Shown here in pieces: positions 12,993 to 22,762 of a DNA stretch of 64,000 bases. Both the position numbers and the translations under genes were made by a program. The notes under the pieces were generated by a model. It ran no database searches and was not told where the DNA came from. It saw only the letters and a program-made list of their open reading frames with translations. Positions within the stretch are counted from its first letter, which is position 1; each line of letters opens with the position of its first letter. The DNA is from Marmoricola endophyticus (lineage in GTDB: Bacteria; Actinomycetota; Actinomycetes; Propionibacteriales; Nocardioidaceae), in assembly GCF_014644415.1 (NCBI RefSeq), contig NZ_BMKQ01000001.1:1354861-1418860 (forward strand), given 5' to 3'.

Positions 12993-13871
12993 TCATGGTG
13001 CCAGGGTCCGGCCCGCGGCAGGGAGCCGACGTGCGGTGAGGTAGCGGGGCCGGCCGGCCAGGTCCGCGTGGTCGCGTACGTCGGCCCACCTCCCGGTGCT
13101 GCCGAAGCAGGCCGGCGCCGACTCGCCCTGGGCGTCCGCGTGCTCCGCACCGACCACGCCACCGGGGCGCAGCAGGCGGTGCGCCGTGCGCTCCAGGACC
13201 CGCATCGCGTCCAGGCCGTCCTCGCCGGACCACAGCGCCGCGGCAGGGTCGTGGTCGCGGGCCTCGGGAGCCACGGACTCCCACGCCTCGAGGGGGATGT
13301 ACGGCGGGTTGCAGACGACGACGTCCACCCGGCCGTCCAGCTCCGGCAGCGCGCTGGCGAGGTCCCCCAGGCCCAGTGAGACGTCGGCGCCGATCGCTGC
13401 CGCGTTCCGCTCGGCCCAGGCCAGCGCGTCGGGGTCGAGCTCGACTCCGTGGACCACGGCGTGCGGTACCTCGGTCGCCACGCTCAGCGCGATCGCGCCC
13501 GACCCGCAGCACAGGTCGACCACCACCGGCCGCTCCAGCGGCGCGGCTGCCTCGACGGCCCACCCGGCCAGCAGCTCGGTCTCCGGTCGCGGGACGAAGA
13601 CGCCCGGCCCGACGGCCAGGTCGAGGTAGCGGAAGCCGGCGGACCCGGTCAGGTGCTGCAGCGGCTCGCGCGCGGCGCGGCGCGCGAGCAGGGCGTCGTA
13701 CGGACCGACGAGCTCGGCGGGGACCTCGCTCGGCAGCGTCGCCCGCGTGCGACCGACGACGTGGGCGAGGAGCTCGGCGGCGTCGTGCTCGGGACTGGCG
13801 ACCCCTGCGTCGGCGAGCCTCACGGCCGCGTCGCCCAGCAGCCCACGGGTCGGCTCCGAGCTCGGCGTCAC
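12993..13871 (-). CDS. prmC: Peptide chain release factor N5-glutamine methyltransferase
   Basis: A 292-aa SAM-dependent enzyme that methylates the GGQ glutamine of release factors. An N-terminal helical RF-binding domain (1-90) precedes a Rossmann fold with [13 protein letters not shown] and the NPPY motif CNPPYIPLE. The GTG start overlaps the prfA stop (GTGA), so the modifying enzyme is translationally coupled to its substrate. The segment [16 protein letters not shown] replaces the more usual hydrophobic strand with a Gly-Ala but keeps the family motif. Confidence 0.93.
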
Positions 13872-14941
13872 TCGCCCAGCGCCTCGAGCCGGGCCTCGAG
13901 GTCGGCGCTGACGCTGGACTCGACGACCGGGTCCAGCGCACCGTCGAGGACCTGGTCGAGGTTGTAGGACTTGTAGCCGGTGCGGTGGTCGGAGATCCGG
14001 TTCTCCGGGTAGTTGTAGGTCCGGATCCGCTCGGAGCGGTCGACCGTGCGTACCTGCGAGCGCCGCGCCTCGGAGGCCTCGCTCGCTGCCTGCTCCTCCG
14101 CCGCGGCCAGCAGCCGGGAGCGCAGGATCCGCATCGCCTGCTCCTTGTTCTGCAGCTGCGACTTCTCGTTCTGGCAGCTGGCCACGACCCCGGTCGGCAG
14201 GTGGGTGATCCGCACGGCGGAGTCGGTGGTGTTGACGCTCTGCCCGCCCGGGCCCGAGGAGCGGTAGACGTCGATGCGCAGGTCCTTGTCCTCGATCTGC
14301 ACGTCGACCTGCTCGGCCTCGGGCAGCACGAGCACGCCGGCGGCGCTCGTGTGCACCCGGCCCTGGCTCTCGGTCACCGGTACGCGCTGGACCCGGTGGA
14401 CGCCGCCCTCGAACTTCAGCCGGGCGTACGGCGCGTGGCCGGGCTCCGGCGTGCCCTTGGCCTGCACCGCCACGGTCACGGACTTGTAGCCGCCGAGGTC
14501 GGACGCGGTGGCGTCGATGATCTCGGTGCGCCAGCCGTGCTGCTCGGCGTAGCGGGTGTACATCCGCAGCAGGTCGCCGGCGAACAGCGCCGACTCCTCG
14601 CCGCCCTCGCCGGACTTCACCTCGACGATCGCGTCCTTGCCGTCGGAGGGGTCGCGCGGCACGAGCAGACCACGCAGCCGCTCGGCCGCGCTCGCGCGAC
14701 GCGCGGCGAGCTCGTCGGCCTCCTCGGCGAACGAGGGATCCTCGGAGGCCAGCTCGCGTGCGGCCTCCTCGTCGTCGCCGAGACGGCGCCACTCGTCGTC
14801 GGCGCGCAGGACGGCGCTGAGCTCGGAGTAGCGCTGGTTCAGGCGCTTGGACAGGGCCGGGTCGGCGTGCACCGCCGGGTCGGCCAGACGCGGCTCCAGC
14901 TCGCGGTGCTCGTCACGCAGTGCGTCGACCGCTTCGAACAC
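13868..14941 (-). CDS. prfA: Peptide chain release factor 1
   Basis: A 357-aa factor that recognises UAA/UAG. The catalytic GGQ loop ([20 protein letters not shown]) and a C-terminal domain rich in basic residues are intact. The GTG at 14941 was chosen over the upstream in-frame ATG because AAGGAGG lies 5 nt before it. A strong hairpin separates it from rpmE. Confidence 0.93.
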
Positions 14942-14980
14942 CGCTGCCTCCTTCGTCTCGTGCCGGACCTCACGACGCAC

Positions 14981-15607: not shown

Positions 15608-17305
15608 TCAGCCCCGCACCGGCAGCGTCAGCCACGATCCCGTGTGGCTCACCGTCTGCACGGTGACCACGGCGTCCTCGATCCGTCCGAGCTCGGGCAC
15701 CTCGCGCGTGCCGAGGTTGCGGCTGAACCGCGGGAAGCTGCTCCCGGCGACGTCGACGCGCAGCCGGTGCCCGGCAGCGAACCGGTGCGCCGTGTGCAGC
15801 AGCGGCACCCGCACCTCGTACGTCCTCCCGGGCACCAGCCAGTCCTCGGTCCCGCCCTCGCGCGTGCGGAGACGGAGCGCGCCCTCGCTGACGTTGGCGA
15901 CGTACCCGTCCGGCTCGACGTCGCTGACCACGACGACCACGTCGGTGTCCTCGCCGGTGCTGGCCACGCGCAGCGTCAGCACCGGCTCGCCGACCACCTC
16001 GAGGTCGTCGTCGAGCCGCGGAGAGGTCCACACCACGACGTCGTCGCGTGCCTGCCGCGCGGCCTGGTCCTGGACCCCGTCGGGACCGAGCGGGGCACAG
16101 GTGAACGCCCCGCCGACGGTCGGGACGGGCGTGGCCGCGTCGTGGACGTACGTCGACTCCCCCGCGCCGGGGTCGCGGGACAGCGCGCCGCCGTCGTCCA
16201 GGTGCCAGTCGACCGGCCGGGCGTCCGCCGGCGGCCACGACTCCCCGCCGGCCCATGCGCCGGAGGCTCCAGGCCCCGTGGCGAACCACGCCACCGGTGG
16301 CCCGTCGAGCAGCCGCCGGGCCAGCGGCGCCGCGACCGGGTCCGCGTCGGGTCGCAACCACCGGTCGAACCAGCCCTGCACCACCGACTGCCAGGCGCCG
16401 ACCCCGCCGGGTGCGGCGGCCCAGGTGCGGGCCCCGACGTTGCCGGTGTAGGTGCCGTTGTGCGCCCACGGCCCGACCACCAGCCGGTGCCGCTCCCCCG
16501 CGTCCCGACGCCCGAACGCGGTCAGCATGCTCGGCTGCATGAAGTCCCGGGTGCCGACGACGCTCAGCACCGGCACGTCGGTGACCGGTGCGTCACGAGC
16601 CGCTGACCGGGTGACGTAGCCGCCGGACTCGTCGCGCACCCAGGCGGCCCACCACGGTGCGAGGTCGGGGTCGGCGAGCACGTCGATCCCGGCGACCGGC
16701 GTGTGCGCGACGGTGCCGCGGAGGTCGGCCGCCGCCGCTCCGATCCGCTGCAGGAGTGAAGCCTTCTCCTCGCCCGTACGGTCGCTGCGGACGACCTGCC
16801 CGACGCACTGGCCCAACGAGTAGCCGGTCAGGAACCCCAGCTCGAGCAGCCCGCCGGGGCGGACGGTCGTGGACAGGTCGGCAGCGCCGATCATCACCAG
16901 CGCCGCCCTCAGGTGTGGCGGAGCCGCGGCGAGGGCGGCGTACGCCGTGATCGCGTGGTACGACGACCCGTACACGCCGACCTGCCCGTCGCACCAGGGC
17001 TGCGCAGCCGCCCACTCGACGGCGTCGTAGCCGTCGTCGTGCTCCTGCTCGCCGAAGTCCAGCACCCCGTCGGAGGCGAAGCGCCCGCGCACGTCCTGGA
17101 CCACCACGGCGTACCCGGCCCGGGCCAGCGCGACGGGGTCGGCGACCAGGGCCGAGACCAGCGTCGGGCTCGTCTTGTCGTACGGCGTCCGGTGCAGCAG
17201 GGCGGGCCGTGGCCGGTCGTCGTCGACCCGGTAGACGTCGGCACGGAGCACGACGCCGTCGCGGGTGGTCATCTCGACGTCGGTGTCGATCCGCAGGCCG
17301 CTCAC
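15608..17305 (-). CDS. CocE/NonD family alpha/beta hydrolase (X-Pro dipeptidyl-peptidase S15-like)
   Basis: A 565-aa esterase/acylaminopeptidase-type hydrolase. The N-terminal catalytic domain contains TTRDGVVLRADVYR, the oxyanion region and the nucleophile Ser115 in VYGSSYH. The C-terminal jelly-roll domain is that of the S15/CocE family (ending ELGRIEDAVVTVQTVSHTGS). The substrate is unknown. The GTG at 17305 is 13 nt after the rho stop; an internal ATG at 17272 would remove 11 residues. No signal peptide is seen. Confidence 0.8.
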   Translation of the reverse strand: MSGLRIDTDVEMTTRDGVVLRADVYRVDDDRPRPALLHRTPYDKTSPTLVSALVADPVALARAGYAVVVQDVRGRFASDGVLDFGEQEHDDGYDAVEWAAAQPWCDGQVGVYGSSYHAITAYAALAAAPPHLRAALVMIGAADLSTTVRPGGLLELGFLTGYSLGQCVGQVVRSDRTGEEKASLLQRIGAAAADLRGTVAHTPVAGIDVLADPDLAPWWAAWVRDESGGYVTRSAARDAPVTDVPVLSVVGTRDFMQPSMLTAFGRRDAGERHRLVVGPWAHNGTYTGNVGARTWAAAPGGVGAWQSVVQGWFDRWLRPDADPVAAPLARRLLDGPPVAWFATGPGASGAWAGGESWPPADARPVDWHLDDGGALSRDPGAGESTYVHDAATPVPTVGGAFTCAPLGPDGVQDQAARQARDDVVVWTSPRLDDDLEVVGEPVLTLRVASTGEDTDVVVVVSDVEPDGYVANVSEGALRLRTREGGTEDWLVPGRTYEVRVPLLHTAHRFAAGHRLRVDVAGSSFPRFSRNLGTREVPELGRIEDAVVTVQTVSHTGSWLTLPVRG

Positions 17306-17318
17306 CGGGTCGAGGATG

Positions 17319-19166
17319 TCACCTCGTGGTGGTGAGCTCGGAGTCCTCGGCCCGCTGGATCGCGGTGAGGAACTCGTAGTTGCTGCGGGTGTGGCCCAGG
17401 CGTGCGAGCACCATCTCCAGCCCGCGGGCCGGCTCCAGCTCCGCCAGCGCGCGCCGCAGCTTGCGGGAGATCTCGATCTCCTCCGCACCGAGGAGCAGCT
17501 CCTCACGACGGGTGCCCGAGCGGAGCACGTCGACCGCGGGGAACAGCCAGCGGTCGGCCAGGTCGCGGCGCAGCCGGAGCTCCATCGTCGAGGTGCCCTC
17601 GAACTCCTCGAGGATCACCTCGTCCATCGCCGAGCCCGACTCGACCGTCGCGGTGGCGATGACGGTCAGCGACCCGCCGTTCTCGATGTTCCGGGCGGCG
17701 CCGAAGAACCGCTTGGGTGGGTAGAGGGCCGAGGCGTCGACACCGCCGGCCAGCGTGCGGCCGGAGGCGGGCGCGGCGAGGTTGTAGGCGCGGCCCAGCG
17801 TCGTGACGCCGTCCAGCAGCACCACGACGTCGTGGCCGAGCTCGACGAGCCGCTTGGCCCGCTCGATGGCCAGCTCGGCGATCGCGGTGTGGTCCGACGG
17901 CGGCCGGTCGAAGGTCGAGGAGATCACCTCTCCACGCACGGACCGCTCGAAGTCGGTGACCTCCTCGGGCCGCTCGTCGATCAGCACCACCATCAGGTGG
18001 CACTCGGGGTTGTTGGCGCTCACGGCGTCCGCGATCGCCCGGAGCACGGTCGTCCGGCCCGCCTTCGCCGCCGAGACGACCAGCCCACGCTGGCCCTTGC
18101 CGATCGGGGCGGCCACGTCGATGACCCGGCCGATCAGCTCGTCGGCCCGGGTCTCCATGCGCAGCCGCTCGGTCGGGTAGAGCGGCGTCAGCGCACCGAA
18201 CTCCTTGCGCGAGCGGGAGAGCTCGGGCTCGGCGCCGTTGACCGAGTCGATCTTGACCAGGGGGTTGAACTTCTCCTTGCGCTCGCCCTCGCGCGGGAGG
18301 CGTACCTGACCGCTGATCGCGTCGCCCGGACGCAGCCCGAGCTTGCGGACCATCGACAGCGAGACGTAGACGTCGTCGGGACCGGCGAGGTAGCCGGTCG
18401 TGCGGACGAACGCGTAGTTGTCGAGGACGTCGAGGATCCCCGCGCACGGCAGCAGCACGTCGTCCTCGAGCACGTTGGTGTCGGGCTCGTTGCGGTTGGT
18501 GCGACCACCGCCCTGCTGCTGCCGGTCGCGGCCACGGCGGCGGCGGTTGCGGCGACCACCGCTCTCGTCGTCGTCGTCGGAGCCGGCGGTCGCGCCCTGG
18601 TCCTGCTTGTTCTGGTCCTGCCCGCCCTGGTTGTTGCTCTGACCACCGCGGGCGTCCTGCTGCTTCGGGCCCTTGTCCTGGCCCTTCTGCTTGTCGTTCT
18701 GCTGCTTGTCGTTCTGCTGCTTGTCGTTCTGCTGCTTGTCGTTCTGCTGCTTGTCGTTCTGCTGGTTGCGACGGCCGCCGCGACCGCGCTGCTGGTCGCC
18801 GCCAGCGTGACCCTCGCGCTGGGTACGGGTCGCCTCGTCGGGCCGGTCGGGCTGCTGGTCCTGGGGCTGGTCGGTCGCGGCCGGCGCCGGCTCCGCCCGC
18901 TTGCGGGTGCGGCGCGCCGGAGCCTCACCCTGCGGGGCGTTGGCTGCTGCGTCGGGCGTCGTGTCCTGCTGCGTCGCGGAGCTCTGGGCACCCTGCCTCG
19001 CCGGACGCCCGCTCTCCTGGGAACCTCCCTGGGCACCCCTGACAGCGGCGACGAGGTCCGCCTTCTTCATCCCCGCGCTCTTGATCCCCAGTGCGCCGGC
19101 GACGCGGCGCAGCTCGGGCATCAGCATCGCGGAGACGTCGCGGCCGTTCTCGGCGGATTCGGTCAT
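17319..19166 (-). CDS. rho: Transcription termination factor Rho, divergent active site and Q/N-rich insertion
   Basis: A 615-aa hexameric RNA helicase ending untranslated transcripts. A Rho_N helical domain (residues ~14-40, MPELRRVAGALGIKSAG) is followed by a ~200-residue disordered Q/N/D/K/R-rich insertion containing QQNDK repeated five times, then the RNA-binding cold-shock domain and the ATPase core. Core residues differ from the usual Rho. The P-loop reads SAAKAGRTTVL where PPKAGKT is standard, LLDGVTTLGRAYN replaces LLDSITRLGRAYN, and DRWLFPAVD replaces ERRVFPAVD. SGTR, DERPEEVTD and RPPSDHT remain. The ATG at 19166 begins the conserved N-domain. Confidence 0.93.
   Translation of the reverse strand: MTESAENGRDVSAMLMPELRRVAGALGIKSAGMKKADLVAAVRGAQGGSQESGRPARQGAQSSATQQDTTPDAAANAPQGEAPARRTRKRAEPAPAATDQPQDQQPDRPDEATRTQREGHAGGDQQRGRGGRRNQQNDKQQNDKQQNDKQQNDKQQNDKQKGQDKGPKQQDARGGQSNNQGGQDQNKQDQGATAGSDDDDESGGRRNRRRRGRDRQQQGGGRTNRNEPDTNVLEDDVLLPCAGILDVLDNYAFVRTTGYLAGPDDVYVSLSMVRKLGLRPGDAISGQVRLPREGERKEKFNPLVKIDSVNGAEPELSRSRKEFGALTPLYPTERLRMETRADELIGRVIDVAAPIGKGQRGLVVSAAKAGRTTVLRAIADAVSANNPECHLMVVLIDERPEEVTDFERSVRGEVISSTFDRPPSDHTAIAELAIERAKRLVELGHDVVVLLDGVTTLGRAYNLAAPASGRTLAGGVDASALYPPKRFFGAARNIENGGSLTVIATATVESGSAMDEVILEEFEGTSTMELRLRRDLADRWLFPAVDVLRSGTRREELLLGAEEIEISRKLRRALAELEPARGLEMVLARLGHTRSNYEFLTAIQRAEDSELTTTR
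18691..18765 (-). repeat. Five-copy 15-bp tandem repeat inside rho
   Basis: TTGTCGTTCTGCTGC occurs five times head to tail on the plus strand, the last copy with one base changed. It encodes repeated QQNDK in the Rho insertion and keeps the frame in every copy, so length changes would be tolerated. Confidence 0.95.
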
Positions 19167-19371
19167 GTGCTGCGTCCTTGTCCCTGGCGACCAGTGGCTG
19201 CGACGGCGAACGGTCCCAGTGGGAGTGATGAGGAGGCGCGGAGCCTTGCCGGAGGCCGTACGACGCAAGACCCGGCGCAGGTGCGAACCGGGGCGACCCC
19301 GGCATCTGCGTACGGCGGCGCGAGCGTAGCACCACGACGACCACACCGGGACCGACCCGGAGCGCTACGGC
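19167..19371 (-). promoter_or_regulatory. rho promoter and leader region
   Basis: The 205-nt gap before rho contains a TACGCT -10-like box on the minus strand at 19328-19323, predicting a leader of ~150 nt. The leader carries a perfect CCGGGG-CGA-CCCCGG hairpin at 19288-19302. Rho genes commonly autoregulate through their leaders; that is inferred here. Confidence 0.4.
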
Positions 19372-20277
19372 TCAGCCGACCTCGACGCTCGCGCCGGGGA
19401 CGCCGATGTCGGGCGTCCGCAGCGTCCATCCCGCCGGCAGCCGGGCCGCGGCCTCCTCGACGTCGCGGTCACGGACCAGGGCGAGCACGCTCGGCCCGGC
19501 ACCGGAGACGACCGCGGCGACCCCGTCGGCCCGCAGGGCGTCGACCAGCGCCATGCTGTCCGGCATCGCCGGGCGTCGCTGCTGCTGGTGCAGCCGGTCC
19601 TCGGTGGCCGGCAGCAGCAGGTCCGCGCGACCGGTCAGTGCAGTGACCAGCAGCGCCGCGCGACCGGCGTTGGCGGCGGCGTCCGCGTGGGGGACGACGT
19701 CGGGCAGCAGTCCACGCGCGACCTCGGTGGAGAGCGGGTCGGGCGGGACGTACACCACGCCGGCGATCTCGGGATCGGGCTGCAGCCGCGCCACGCGGAT
19801 GCGGCCGTCGTCCTGGGTCACCGACACCGTCAGGCCGCCGAGCAGGGCAGGGGCGACGTTGTCGGGGTGGCCCTCCAGGCGGGTCGCCAGCGCCAGCGCG
19901 GCCTCCTCGTCGAGCAGCGAGCGCCCGTCCTCGACCAGTGCCCGCGCCAGCACGATGCCACCGACGATGGCGGCCGAGGACGACCCGAGACCGCGGGCAT
20001 GGGGGATCAGGTTGCTGCAGACCAGGCGCAGGCCGGGCGCCTCGCAGACCATCTCGGTGAAGGCGGCGACCATGGCGCGGTGCACGAGGTGCCGCTCGTC
20101 GCGCGGCACGTCCTCGGCACCCTCCCCCTCGACGAGGATCTGCAGCGGGCCGTCGACGACCTCCGCTCCGAGGCCGTCGAGGACGCCGACGGCCAGCCCG
20201 AGGGTGTCGAAGCCGGGACCGAGGTTGGCGCTGCTGGCCGGGACGCTGGCGGCGACCGGCCCGTCGACGAACCTCAC
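19372..20277 (-). CDS. thrB: Homoserine kinase
   Basis: A 301-aa GHMP kinase phosphorylating homoserine for threonine synthesis. The ATP-binding motif [15 protein letters not shown] and the N-terminal [18 protein letters not shown] are diagnostic. The GTG start overlaps the thrC stop (GTGA). The C-terminal [11 protein letters not shown] motif is intact. The long upstream open frame belongs to thrC's other frame. Confidence 0.95.
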
Positions 20278-21359
20278 CGCAGGCCGGCGGCGGCAGCCGC
20301 GGCGTCGACGTCGGCGTCCACGACGGTGTCCACGACGTCGGTGAACGTCGACAGCGCGGTGTCGACGTCCTTCAGGCCGTGACCGGTCACGGTGACCACG
20401 ACCGTACGGCCGGAGACGTCCGCGCCCTCGGCCTGCTCGAGCAGCAGCCCGGCGACCCCTGCGGCGGACGCCGGCTCGACGAAGACGCCGTCGCGGGAGG
20501 CGAGCTCGCGCTGCGCGGCGAGGATCTGGTCGTCGGTGACCTTGCGGAACATCCCACCGGACTGCTCGGCGGCCTCGACCGCGAGGTCCCACGACGCAGG
20601 GTTGCCGATCCGGATCGCCGAGGCCAGGGTCTCCGGCGCCGCGACGGGCGCCCCGTCGACCAGTGGGGCGGCACCCCACGCCTGCCAGCCGCGCATCACC
20701 GGGCGCCGGGTGGCGTCGCCGGCGTCCGCCGCCTCGCGGTAGCCCAGCCAGTACGCCGAGACGTTGCCGGCGTTGCCCGTCGGCAGGACGTGCACGTCGG
20801 GCGCGTCGCCGAGAGCGTCCACGATCTCGAACGAGGCGGTCTTCTGCCCCTGCAGGCGCATCGGGTTGACCGAGTTCACCAGCGCGACCGGGTAGTCCTC
20901 GGCGAGACCGCGCGAGAGGCGCAGGCAGTCGTCGAAGTTGCCGCGGACCATGATCACCTGCGCGCCGTGGATGATCGCCTGGGCCAGCTTGCCGGCCGCG
21001 ATCTTGCCCTGGGGCACGAGGACCAGCGGCTTGACCCCGGCCCGTGCGGCGTACGCCGCCATCGATGCGGAGGTGTTCCCGGTCGAGGCGCACACCACCG
21101 CCTCGGCGCCCTCGCCGACCGCGACCGAGAGCGCCACGGTCATCCCGCGGTCCTTGAAGGAGCCGGTCGGGTTGTCCCCCTCGACCTTCAGGTGCACGTC
21201 GGCACCGAGCAGGCCCGAGAGCCAGCCGCTGCGCACCAGCGGGGTGCCGCCCTCACCGAGCGTGATGGTCGGGGTGGACCCGGGGATGTCGAGGCGGTGG
21301 CGGTACTCCTCGATCACGCCCCGCCACTGGCGACCGCGGACCGGTGCGGGCGCGCTCAC
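20274..21359 (-). CDS. thrC: Threonine synthase
   Basis: A 361-aa PLP enzyme converting phosphohomoserine to threonine. The PLP lysine is Lys69 in [12 protein letters not shown] and the phosphate-binding loop is visible in [13 protein letters not shown]. The GTG start overlaps the hom stop and its own stop overlaps thrB, so hom-thrC-thrB are translationally coupled. The C-terminal Ala-rich tail ([14 protein letters not shown]) is not part of the fold. Confidence 0.96.
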
Positions 21360-22681
21360 GACAGCGCCCCCTCGGTGTCGCCCTCGACCCGCATCACCGA
21401 GGACACCTCACGCACCCACGCCATCGCGCTGAGCGTCTCGACCGTCGCGGAGAGGTCGGCGTCGCTGGCGCGGTGCGAGACGACGACGAGCTGCGCGTCG
21501 TCGCCACGTCCCTCCTGGCGCACGGTCTGCAGCGAGACGTCGTGCTCGGCGAAGGCCTGCGCGACCGAGGCCAGCACGCCCGCCTTGTCGTCGACGTCGA
21601 GCTGGATGTGGTAGCGCGTCTGGGTGCGGCCCATCGGCAGCACCGGCAGGTCGGCGTACGTCGTCTCGGCCGCCCCACGGACCTGCGAGACCCGGTTGCG
21701 CGCTGCGGATACCAGGTCCCCGAGCACCGCGCTGGCCGTCGGGGGGCCGCCCGCGCCGGGGCCGTAGAACATCAGCCGGCCGGCGGCCTCGCTCTCGACG
21801 AAGACCGCGTTGTACGCCTCACGCACGCTGGCCAACGGGTGGCTCAGCGGGATCATCGCCGGGTGGACGCGGGCCGAGACGGCCGGGCCGTCCGGCCCCT
21901 CGACCAGCTCGCAGATCGAGAGCAGCTTGACCACGGCGCCCATCTCGCGCGCCGAGGCGACGTCGCTGGCGGTGACCTCGGAGATCCCCTCGCGGTGCAC
22001 GTCGTTGGCGGTGACCCGGGTATGGAAGGCCAGCGAGGCGAGGATCGCGGCCTTGGCGGCGGCGTCGAAGCCCTCGACGTCGGCCGTGGGGTCGGCCTCG
22101 GCGTACCCGAGACGCTGTGCCTCCTCGAGGGCCTCGGCGAAGCCCGAGCCCTGGGAGTCCATCCGGTCCAGCACGAAGTTCGTGGTGCCGTTGGTGATGC
22201 CGAGGACCCGGGTCACCCTGTCGCCGGCCAGCGACTCGCGCAGCGGACGCAGGATCGGGATCGCCCCTGCCACCGCGGCCTCGTAGAACAGGTCGCGCCC
22301 GGCCGCGTCGGCGGCGGCGAACAGCGTCGCGCCGTCCTCGGCGATCAGCGCCTTGTTGGCGCTCACCACCGAGGCGCCGGACTCCAGCGCGGCCAGGATC
22401 AGCGACCGTGCCGGCTCGATGCCGCCGATCACCTCGACCACCAGGTCGACGTCGTCGCGACGCACCAGCGCCTCCGCGTCCGTGGTGACGAGGCCGGCGG
22501 GGAGGTCGACGTCGCGCGGGGCGTCGGGACGGCGTACGGCGACCCCGGCGAGCTCGAGCGGCGCGCCCACGCGGGCGGCGAGGTCCTCCGACTGGGTGGT
22601 CAGCAGCCGGACGACCTGGCTGCCGACGACGCCGCAGCCGAGCACGGCGACCTTCAACGGGGTCGGGTGGGGAGAGTTCAT
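21356..22681 (-). CDS. hom: Homoserine dehydrogenase
   Basis: A 441-aa NAD(P)-dependent enzyme making homoserine from aspartate semialdehyde. It shows the Rossmann motif [13 protein letters not shown], the substrate motif [12 protein letters not shown] with [13 protein letters not shown], and a C-terminal ACT domain (about residues 355-435, [19 protein letters not shown]), the usual threonine feedback site. The ATG at 22681 gives the family N-terminus. The open frame continues upstream through a hairpin that is not coding. Confidence 0.96.
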
Positions 22682-22720
22682 GGCGCCCCCATCCTCGCAC
22701 TGTGCTCGCGGCCGGCCCGT

Positions 22721-22762
22721 CGTGTGTCTCACGACGCCCTCCAGGTCGTCGTGAGACACACG
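22721..22762. terminator. Perfect 16-bp hairpin between lysA and hom
   Basis: The arms 22721-22736 (CGTGTGTCTCACGACG) and 22747-22762 are exact reverse complements around a 10-nt loop. It lies 10 nt after the lysA stop and 40 nt before hom. It could terminate lysA, attenuate hom, or be a mobile palindromic repeat. No U-tract follows. Confidence 0.65.

Follow-up and report, generated by a model that had tools for sequence, protein, structure and literature searches.

Rho, the transcription termination factor, is normally a ring driven by ATP that draws RNA away from the transcription machinery. Its ATPase residues have been called mostly or highly conserved in bacteria on the basis of an alignment covering more than 1200 species (PMC8828861 and PMC4499133). 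The best solved relative of the protein analysed here is Rho of M. tuberculosis (7oqh; 537 bits over query residues 8-384), which has the same RNA-binding and ATPase domains and likewise a large N-terminal insert; unlike the protein analysed here, it has the Walker A lysine and is presented as a bona fide motor with a catalytic Glu (PMC4499133). Its E211A-equivalent is reported to carry out no ATP hydrolysis, unwinding or termination (PMC4499133; PMC5379054), with oligomeric state and the binding of ATP and RNA not drastically changed (PMC4499133), and mutants equivalent to E211, D265 and R366 fail to sustain growth (PMC5379054). The roles of motor and allosteric contact in termination are still debated (PMC8964686); a motor-independent stand-by/allosteric mode has been proposed (PMC8964686), and a motor-independent proposal made for M. 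tuberculosis Rho has been contested (PMC4499133). Bound nucleotide is also reported to promote higher-order Rho oligomers that are inactive (PMC11829017).

The window is a stretch of 64,000 nucleotides from Marmoricola endophyticus, whose genome is a draft in 22 contigs and 99.99% complete. Its rho gene lies in a minus-strand frame (17319-19346), and the product scores 555.3 bits against the NCBIfam equivalog of transcription termination factor Rho (TIGR00767, cut-off 509.45) and carries the Pfam domains PF07497 and PF00006, the former, the RNA-binding domain, at 91.5 bits. The short-form Rho paralog (NF041509) is homologous, but the protein stays below the cut-off of that family (503.1 bits against 628), and unlike the paralog the window gene is a single copy in a conserved neighbourhood. 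An earlier note on this DNA had proposed looking for a second rho in the genome; a PF00006 profile search gave three matches, rho and two others which, from their place, we take to be F1 alpha and beta, and thus no second Rho. Among 181 rho-region loci, several of them cut by contig ends and one (L357) not covering rho, the ThrC-type neighbour is present in 172 and the PrfA-type neighbour in 159. The N-terminal insert contains QQNDK repeats, encoded by a tandem repeat with a 15-base unit (5.5 copies, 98% match). Downstream, an open reading frame at 15608-17506, as listed, overlaps the 3' end of rho; presumably it encodes a CocE/NonD-type hydrolase, and among the 181 loci scanned a relative was found in only one, the window itself.

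Table 1. Features of the rho region in the window (residue numbers as in E. coli Rho).
Feature	Position	Strand	Remark
Flanking gene, taken from its sequence to be Hom	21356..22759	minus	control
Flanking gene, taken from its sequence to be ThrC	20274..21359	minus	rate and tree control
Flanking gene, taken from its sequence to be PrfA	13868..14980	minus	control
rho gene, 615 aa	17319..19166	minus	ATG at 19166; sole Rho found in genome
Tandem repeat, 15-base unit (QQNDK)	18687..18768	minus	in N-terminal insert of Rho
RNA-binding domain PF07497, primary RNA site	18222..18443	minus	F64, R66, D78, Y80, E108, K109 kept
RecA-like ATPase domain PF00006	17517..18128	minus	altered
P-loop SAAKAGRT, residues 178-185	18051..18074	minus	
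Walker A lysine, K184 to R	18054..18056	minus	codon CGG
Catalytic E211 and arginine valve R212	17970..17975	minus	both retained; roles as given in PMC8828861
Walker B D265, and S266G	17808..17813	minus	D265 retained; G266 (GGC) common in family
R269 to T	17799..17801	minus	codon ACG
R-loop K326 to A	17628..17630	minus	codon GCG
K336 to E	17598..17600	minus	codon GAG
R353 to W	17547..17549	minus	codon TGG
Arginine finger R366	17508..17510	minus	retained, codon CGT

The motifs on which the earlier note had based its reading are encoded exactly as quoted, in SAAKAGRTT, DGVTTLGRAYN and ADRWLFPA. When aligned with and numbered after E. coli Rho (PDB 1pv4), a homologue over the whole core with the same primary RNA-site residues, the protein bears out the note's claim of changes at normally invariant ATPase positions (K184R, R269T and R353W); its list had missed K326A and K336E, at two motor sites that are usually basic, so that five residues of E. 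coli Rho are replaced. By contrast, S266G and the loss of P180, both within stretches that the note had quoted, do not mark the window, because both occur in Rho that bears K184: G266 is found in 232 of 319 family sequences, and P180 is present in 138 and absent from 181. Position 181 is other than K in 108 of the 319. Compared with what is expected of a RecA-type hexameric ATPase, the window Rho thus has R in place of the Walker A lysine, while the Walker B Asp, catalytic Glu, Arg valve and Arg finger (D265, E211, R212 and R366) are all present, as is T185. The basic R-loop residue expected of an RNA translocase, K326, is replaced by A; K326 itself is not absolute for Rho, since M. tuberculosis Rho has T at this position and still works (PMC8828861). 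A close relative within Nocardioidaceae, G003, has K184, R269, K326, K336 and R353, so that the state of the window is derived and not a misreading.

The window is not alone in this respect. Out of 341 family genomes searched, 329 matched, and 319 Rho sequences were readable from 318 genomes (G015 contributes two; G055, G057, G060, G062, G269, G271, G272, G276, G277 and G291 were left out, and G328/L211 was too short). K184 is gone in 76 of these 319, and seven different residues take its place (R in 32, A in 27, T in 11, V and N in two each, I and G in one each). Outside the family, in samples of the same order and class, it is present in 47 of 47 sequences that could be read, which come from 46 genomes (two of 49 loci dropped; second Rho-like matches of G368 and G370 were left out). 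Full match tables, which cover 69 of the 76 lysine-less genomes, contain no second Rho. Without regard to the N terminus, core copies of lysine-less relatives fall on both sides of the TIGR00767 cut-off, L302 (580.4) and L026 (522.4) above it and L064 (474.8), L350 (466.7) and L344 (384.9) below. Two long Rho matches per genome were seen in G092:C4 and G086, those in G092 about 10 kb apart on the same contig. In two single-contig genomes, a K184-bearing Rho match is split over two frames (L391 in G158 and L065 in G264), which reflects either an assembly frameshift or real damage.

To count the losses, we used a species tree built from the three flanking genes, so that Rho's own tree was avoided; it holds 171 of 180 Rho loci, those with two or three control genes, of which 51 are lysine-less and 120 K184-bearing. 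On this tree K184 changes at least 19 times, there are 19 maximal lysine-less clades, and 15 independent pairs can be drawn on starred branches. A Rho tree of all 319 sequences with thirteen catalytic columns removed gives a minimum of 13 losses; both are FastTree trees with local support only. K184 is still present in the window's sister G003 (support 99) and in that of N. aequoreus (support 100), which means two losses in the window's genus alone, and one group of 22 genomes is lysine-less throughout. We estimate from the flanking-gene tree that K184 was lost about 15-19 times independently in Nocardioidaceae. With a probability of roughly 0.6, we suggest that members of this family have repeatedly turned Rho into an RNA-binding ring that is no motor, or a severely crippled one, and that the window represents one such case.

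The lysine does not disappear alone. A basic residue (K or R) at R-loop position 326 is found in only 3 of 76 lysine-less sequences vs 216 of 243 K184-bearing ones; within the 171 genomes of the species tree, it is lost in 48 of 51 and 10 of 120, respectively. In independent pairs this co-loss goes the same way in 7.9 and the other way in 0 (p 0.008), the sole significant association. For F355, the adenine-stacking residue, the pairs are borderline (5.1 to 0, p 0.06), an aromatic being present in 30 of 76 lysine-less vs 238 of 243 K184-bearing Rho. R353 (21/76 vs 214/243), R347 (17/76 vs 200/243) and E211 (33/76 vs 242/243) are also kept far less often, and the Q-loop residue G288 is among the altered sites; in independent pairs, co-loss with K184 is not significant for K336, R347, R353, E211, G288, R269, L320 or R366, and loss of E211 amounts to only four changes on the flanking-gene tree. 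A group of 35 sequences, defined by residues and not as a clade, combines A, T or V at 184 and A or T at 211 with a C terminus that lacks about 17 residues; this short tail is found in exactly those 35 of the 76 lysine-less, and also in 6 of 243 K184-bearing sequences. Motor sites are eroded to some extent in K184-bearing Rho as well, where 27 of 243 reach a score of at most 7 over ten sites. L095, L108 and L112 are K184-bearing sequences with partly eroded motors, in which residue 181 is D (APSDAGKT) and residue 353 is G.

Other sites are untouched. The primary RNA-site residues F64, R66, D78, Y80, E108, K109 and F110 are kept in 76 of 76 lysine-less Rho, the window included; 32 sequences, every one from the 35-sequence group, have C in place of Y62. 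D265, R212, E215 and R173 are unchanged in all 76, position 185 is T or S in all 76, R366 is found in 70 and R181 in 49. Such retention raises the question of an altered but still active motor, in which arginine at 184, or R181, stands in for the lysine and gives a slow enzyme whose coupling to nucleotide or RNA has changed. Among replacements of the lysine, K184R is the most frequent and also the one in the window, and 26 of the 32 sequences with K184R keep E211; judged from these residues, nucleotide may still be bound, and perhaps slowly hydrolysed, and K181 or R181 might partly substitute for K184. For the window Rho, slow residual ATPase is thus possible and is the main alternative. We regard an active motor as rather unlikely overall, as 44 of the 76 have A, T, V, I, G or N at 184, catalytic E211 is absent from 43, the aromatic at 355 is mostly gone and the R-loop lysine is lost at the same time. 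Loss of hydrolysis would be much more likely in the 35-sequence group than in the window.

Rates of evolution differ between the two classes and between the two domains. Summed over terminal branches of the fixed species tree, the length of the Rho core divided by that of the control genes comes to 2.13 in the 51 lysine-less vs 0.52 in the 120 K184-bearing genomes (51 and 118 ratios compared by Mann-Whitney, p 1.2e-9, uncorrected for kinship); terminal core length against that of the controls is 0.39/0.19 in the window and 0.04/0.22 in its sister G003. The acceleration is concentrated in the ATPase domain, where relative terminal length is 2.37 in lysine-less vs 0.45 in K184-bearing Rho (5.3 times faster), compared to 0.79 vs 0.68 (1.2 times) in the RNA-binding domain; in the window, the RNA-binding domain evolved fast as well (1.63). 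Close pairs drawn from the 35-sequence group, although not independent of each other, give a dN/dS of 0.135 for the ATPase domain (117 pairs; 0.170 in 4832 K184-bearing pairs) and 0.022 for the RNA-binding domain (0.253 in K184-bearing pairs); on these close pairs only, the group is under purifying selection. Over all pairs, where distant pairs dominate, the median is 0.454 in lysine-less vs 0.245 in K184-bearing Rho for the core, and 0.244 vs 0.234 for the RNA-binding domain. A scan of the loci for compensating intrinsic terminators, as hairpins followed by T-runs, had no discriminating power: it gave 0.02 per 10 kb in the 51 lysine-less and the 120 K184-bearing alike, less than a single shuffled version of either set (0.06 and 0.05).

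A faster ATPase domain is also what relaxed selection predicts. Here Rho would be dispensable in these bacteria and the gene slowly decaying, motor first; we think this unlikely overall. The whole-core rate and the fast RNA-binding domain of the window agree with it, Rho is reported to be dispensable in Streptomyces lividans, B. subtilis and S. aureus (PMC5379054), and the window Rho finds no match in one genome, G192 (given as 99% complete, in 340 contigs), where the Rho profile scores only 34 bits. Against this, all 12 genomes without a Rho match are fragmented (150-500 contigs), and the cores of 76 of 76 lysine-less Rho are open and complete, with at most 15 gapped sites of 331 in each; the earlier note's view that decay is unlikely holds in that the window rho is not an obvious pseudogene. 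The RNA-binding domain keeps a near-normal rate across the lysine-less set as well as its primary-site residues, and an ATPase domain that evolved fast and was then constrained again in the 35-sequence group speaks against a dying gene there, and for a changed function. For the younger losses, including that of the window, relaxed selection is possible.

Bicyclomycin-resistance mutations map to ATPase-pocket positions such as those changed here, and the earlier note had thought of an altered-kinetics or drug-insensitive Rho. Remodelling of the pocket to escape bicyclomycin or another Rho inhibitor would fit the placing of K184 and L320 in or by the bicyclomycin cavity (PMC8828861) and the changes of S266 and M219 in most of the family. 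We nonetheless consider drug escape improbable and reject it as the principal cause, because K326, the site that changes most constantly along with K184, belongs to the R-loop and is a residue of the RNA channel (PMC8828861), and G266 is common in K184-bearing relatives, being in fact rarer in lysine-less (27/76) than in K184-bearing Rho (205/243). The Q-loop residue G288, F355 and the shortened C terminus are also involved, and resistance as described in the available text requires one mild change, L320M (PMC8828861). Drug insensitivity may follow from the changes, but it leaves the loss of K326 unexplained. The interpretation of the note is thus partly supported: the Rho is altered, but the wider pattern looks like neither a tuned nor a drug-insensitive pocket, and instead like a recurrent loss of motor residues at many sites with the RNA-binding domain intact.

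An assembly or sequencing error, or a paralog read in place of rho, is scarcely credible even for a draft genome, since going from a lysine codon to CGG takes at least two base changes, so that one miscalled base is not enough (the earlier note had named sequencing error as a possible refutation), and since the same syndrome recurs in many independent genomes, some of them single-contig (G127, G185, G202, G249 and G253), in a conserved neighbourhood and without a second Rho.

Returning to the reading of Rho without a motor, we think that the window gene is rather probably the orthologous single-copy rho of a Nocardioides-type bacterium in which the ATP-driven RNA translocase has been lost, or largely lost, and the primary RNA-binding domain kept. 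Lysine-less Rho, if it works at all, probably does so without a motor. We propose that the presumably disordered N-terminal insert and the primary RNA site of the assembled ring would still capture nascent RNA, and that docking on RNA polymerase may be preserved; lacking the R-loop lysine and effective hydrolysis, the protein would not pull the RNA through. Its cellular role might then be that of a passive, non-translocating factor in pausing, attenuation or RNA capture, with at most the motor-independent stand-by/allosteric route left to it. The published mutants, the stand-by mode and the nucleotide-bound oligomers introduced above lead us to the view that lysine-less Rho may bind RNA, and perhaps nucleotide and polymerase, without translocating. 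The laboratory ATPase-dead mutants (E211A/E386A, D265N, R366A) are alike in expected phenotype, RNA binding without hydrolysis; the lysine-less Rho differs from them in that it arose in nature, repeatedly, and is retained as the sole Rho found, and the residues are partly other ones.

It is about an even chance, as we see it from sequence comparison, that this is a natural, repeatedly evolved and selectively maintained motor-less Rho, whose effect on transcription comes only from RNA capture or from allosteric contact with the polymerase. If so, a function that makes Rho worth keeping would be separable from ATP hydrolysis and translocation, and an annotated rho gene need not imply Rho-dependent termination. 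The roughly 15-19 losses, most with K184-bearing relatives beside them, offer matched natural pairs for the question of motor vs allosteric contact. Among the open-access literature matches listed, taken by title and start of abstract, none is an earlier report of a natural Walker-A-less Rho.

Beyond the family, an exact-pattern DNA scan over GTDB (84,980 species) returned 28 loci, ten of them titled Nocardioides (alcanivorans, solisilvae, currus, aequoreus, allogilvus, daejeonensis, two strains and two MAGs) and two Amnibacterium. With any codon allowed at 184 the pattern matches 46 of 47 out-of-family sequences; with a non-lysine codon it matches only 19 of the 76 lysine-less family sequences, and it is blind to K to Q, E, D, N or H, so that 28 is a lower bound. 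The two Amnibacterium loci (L049 and L050) have K184T, and no Rho other than the altered one was found there; L044 and L058 likewise have an altered Rho outside the family, with K184T in the former but R in L058. Loss of K184 in Amnibacterium has an origin separate from that in Nocardioidaceae. Most of the remaining matches come from MAG contigs, in some cases from a genome that has a second Rho as well (as L409 in G348). The Thermoleophilia MAGs L038 and L041 contain divergent Rho-like proteins with DRPVEE replacing DERPEE, and the genome of L038 additionally holds a full-scoring Rho match, L402.
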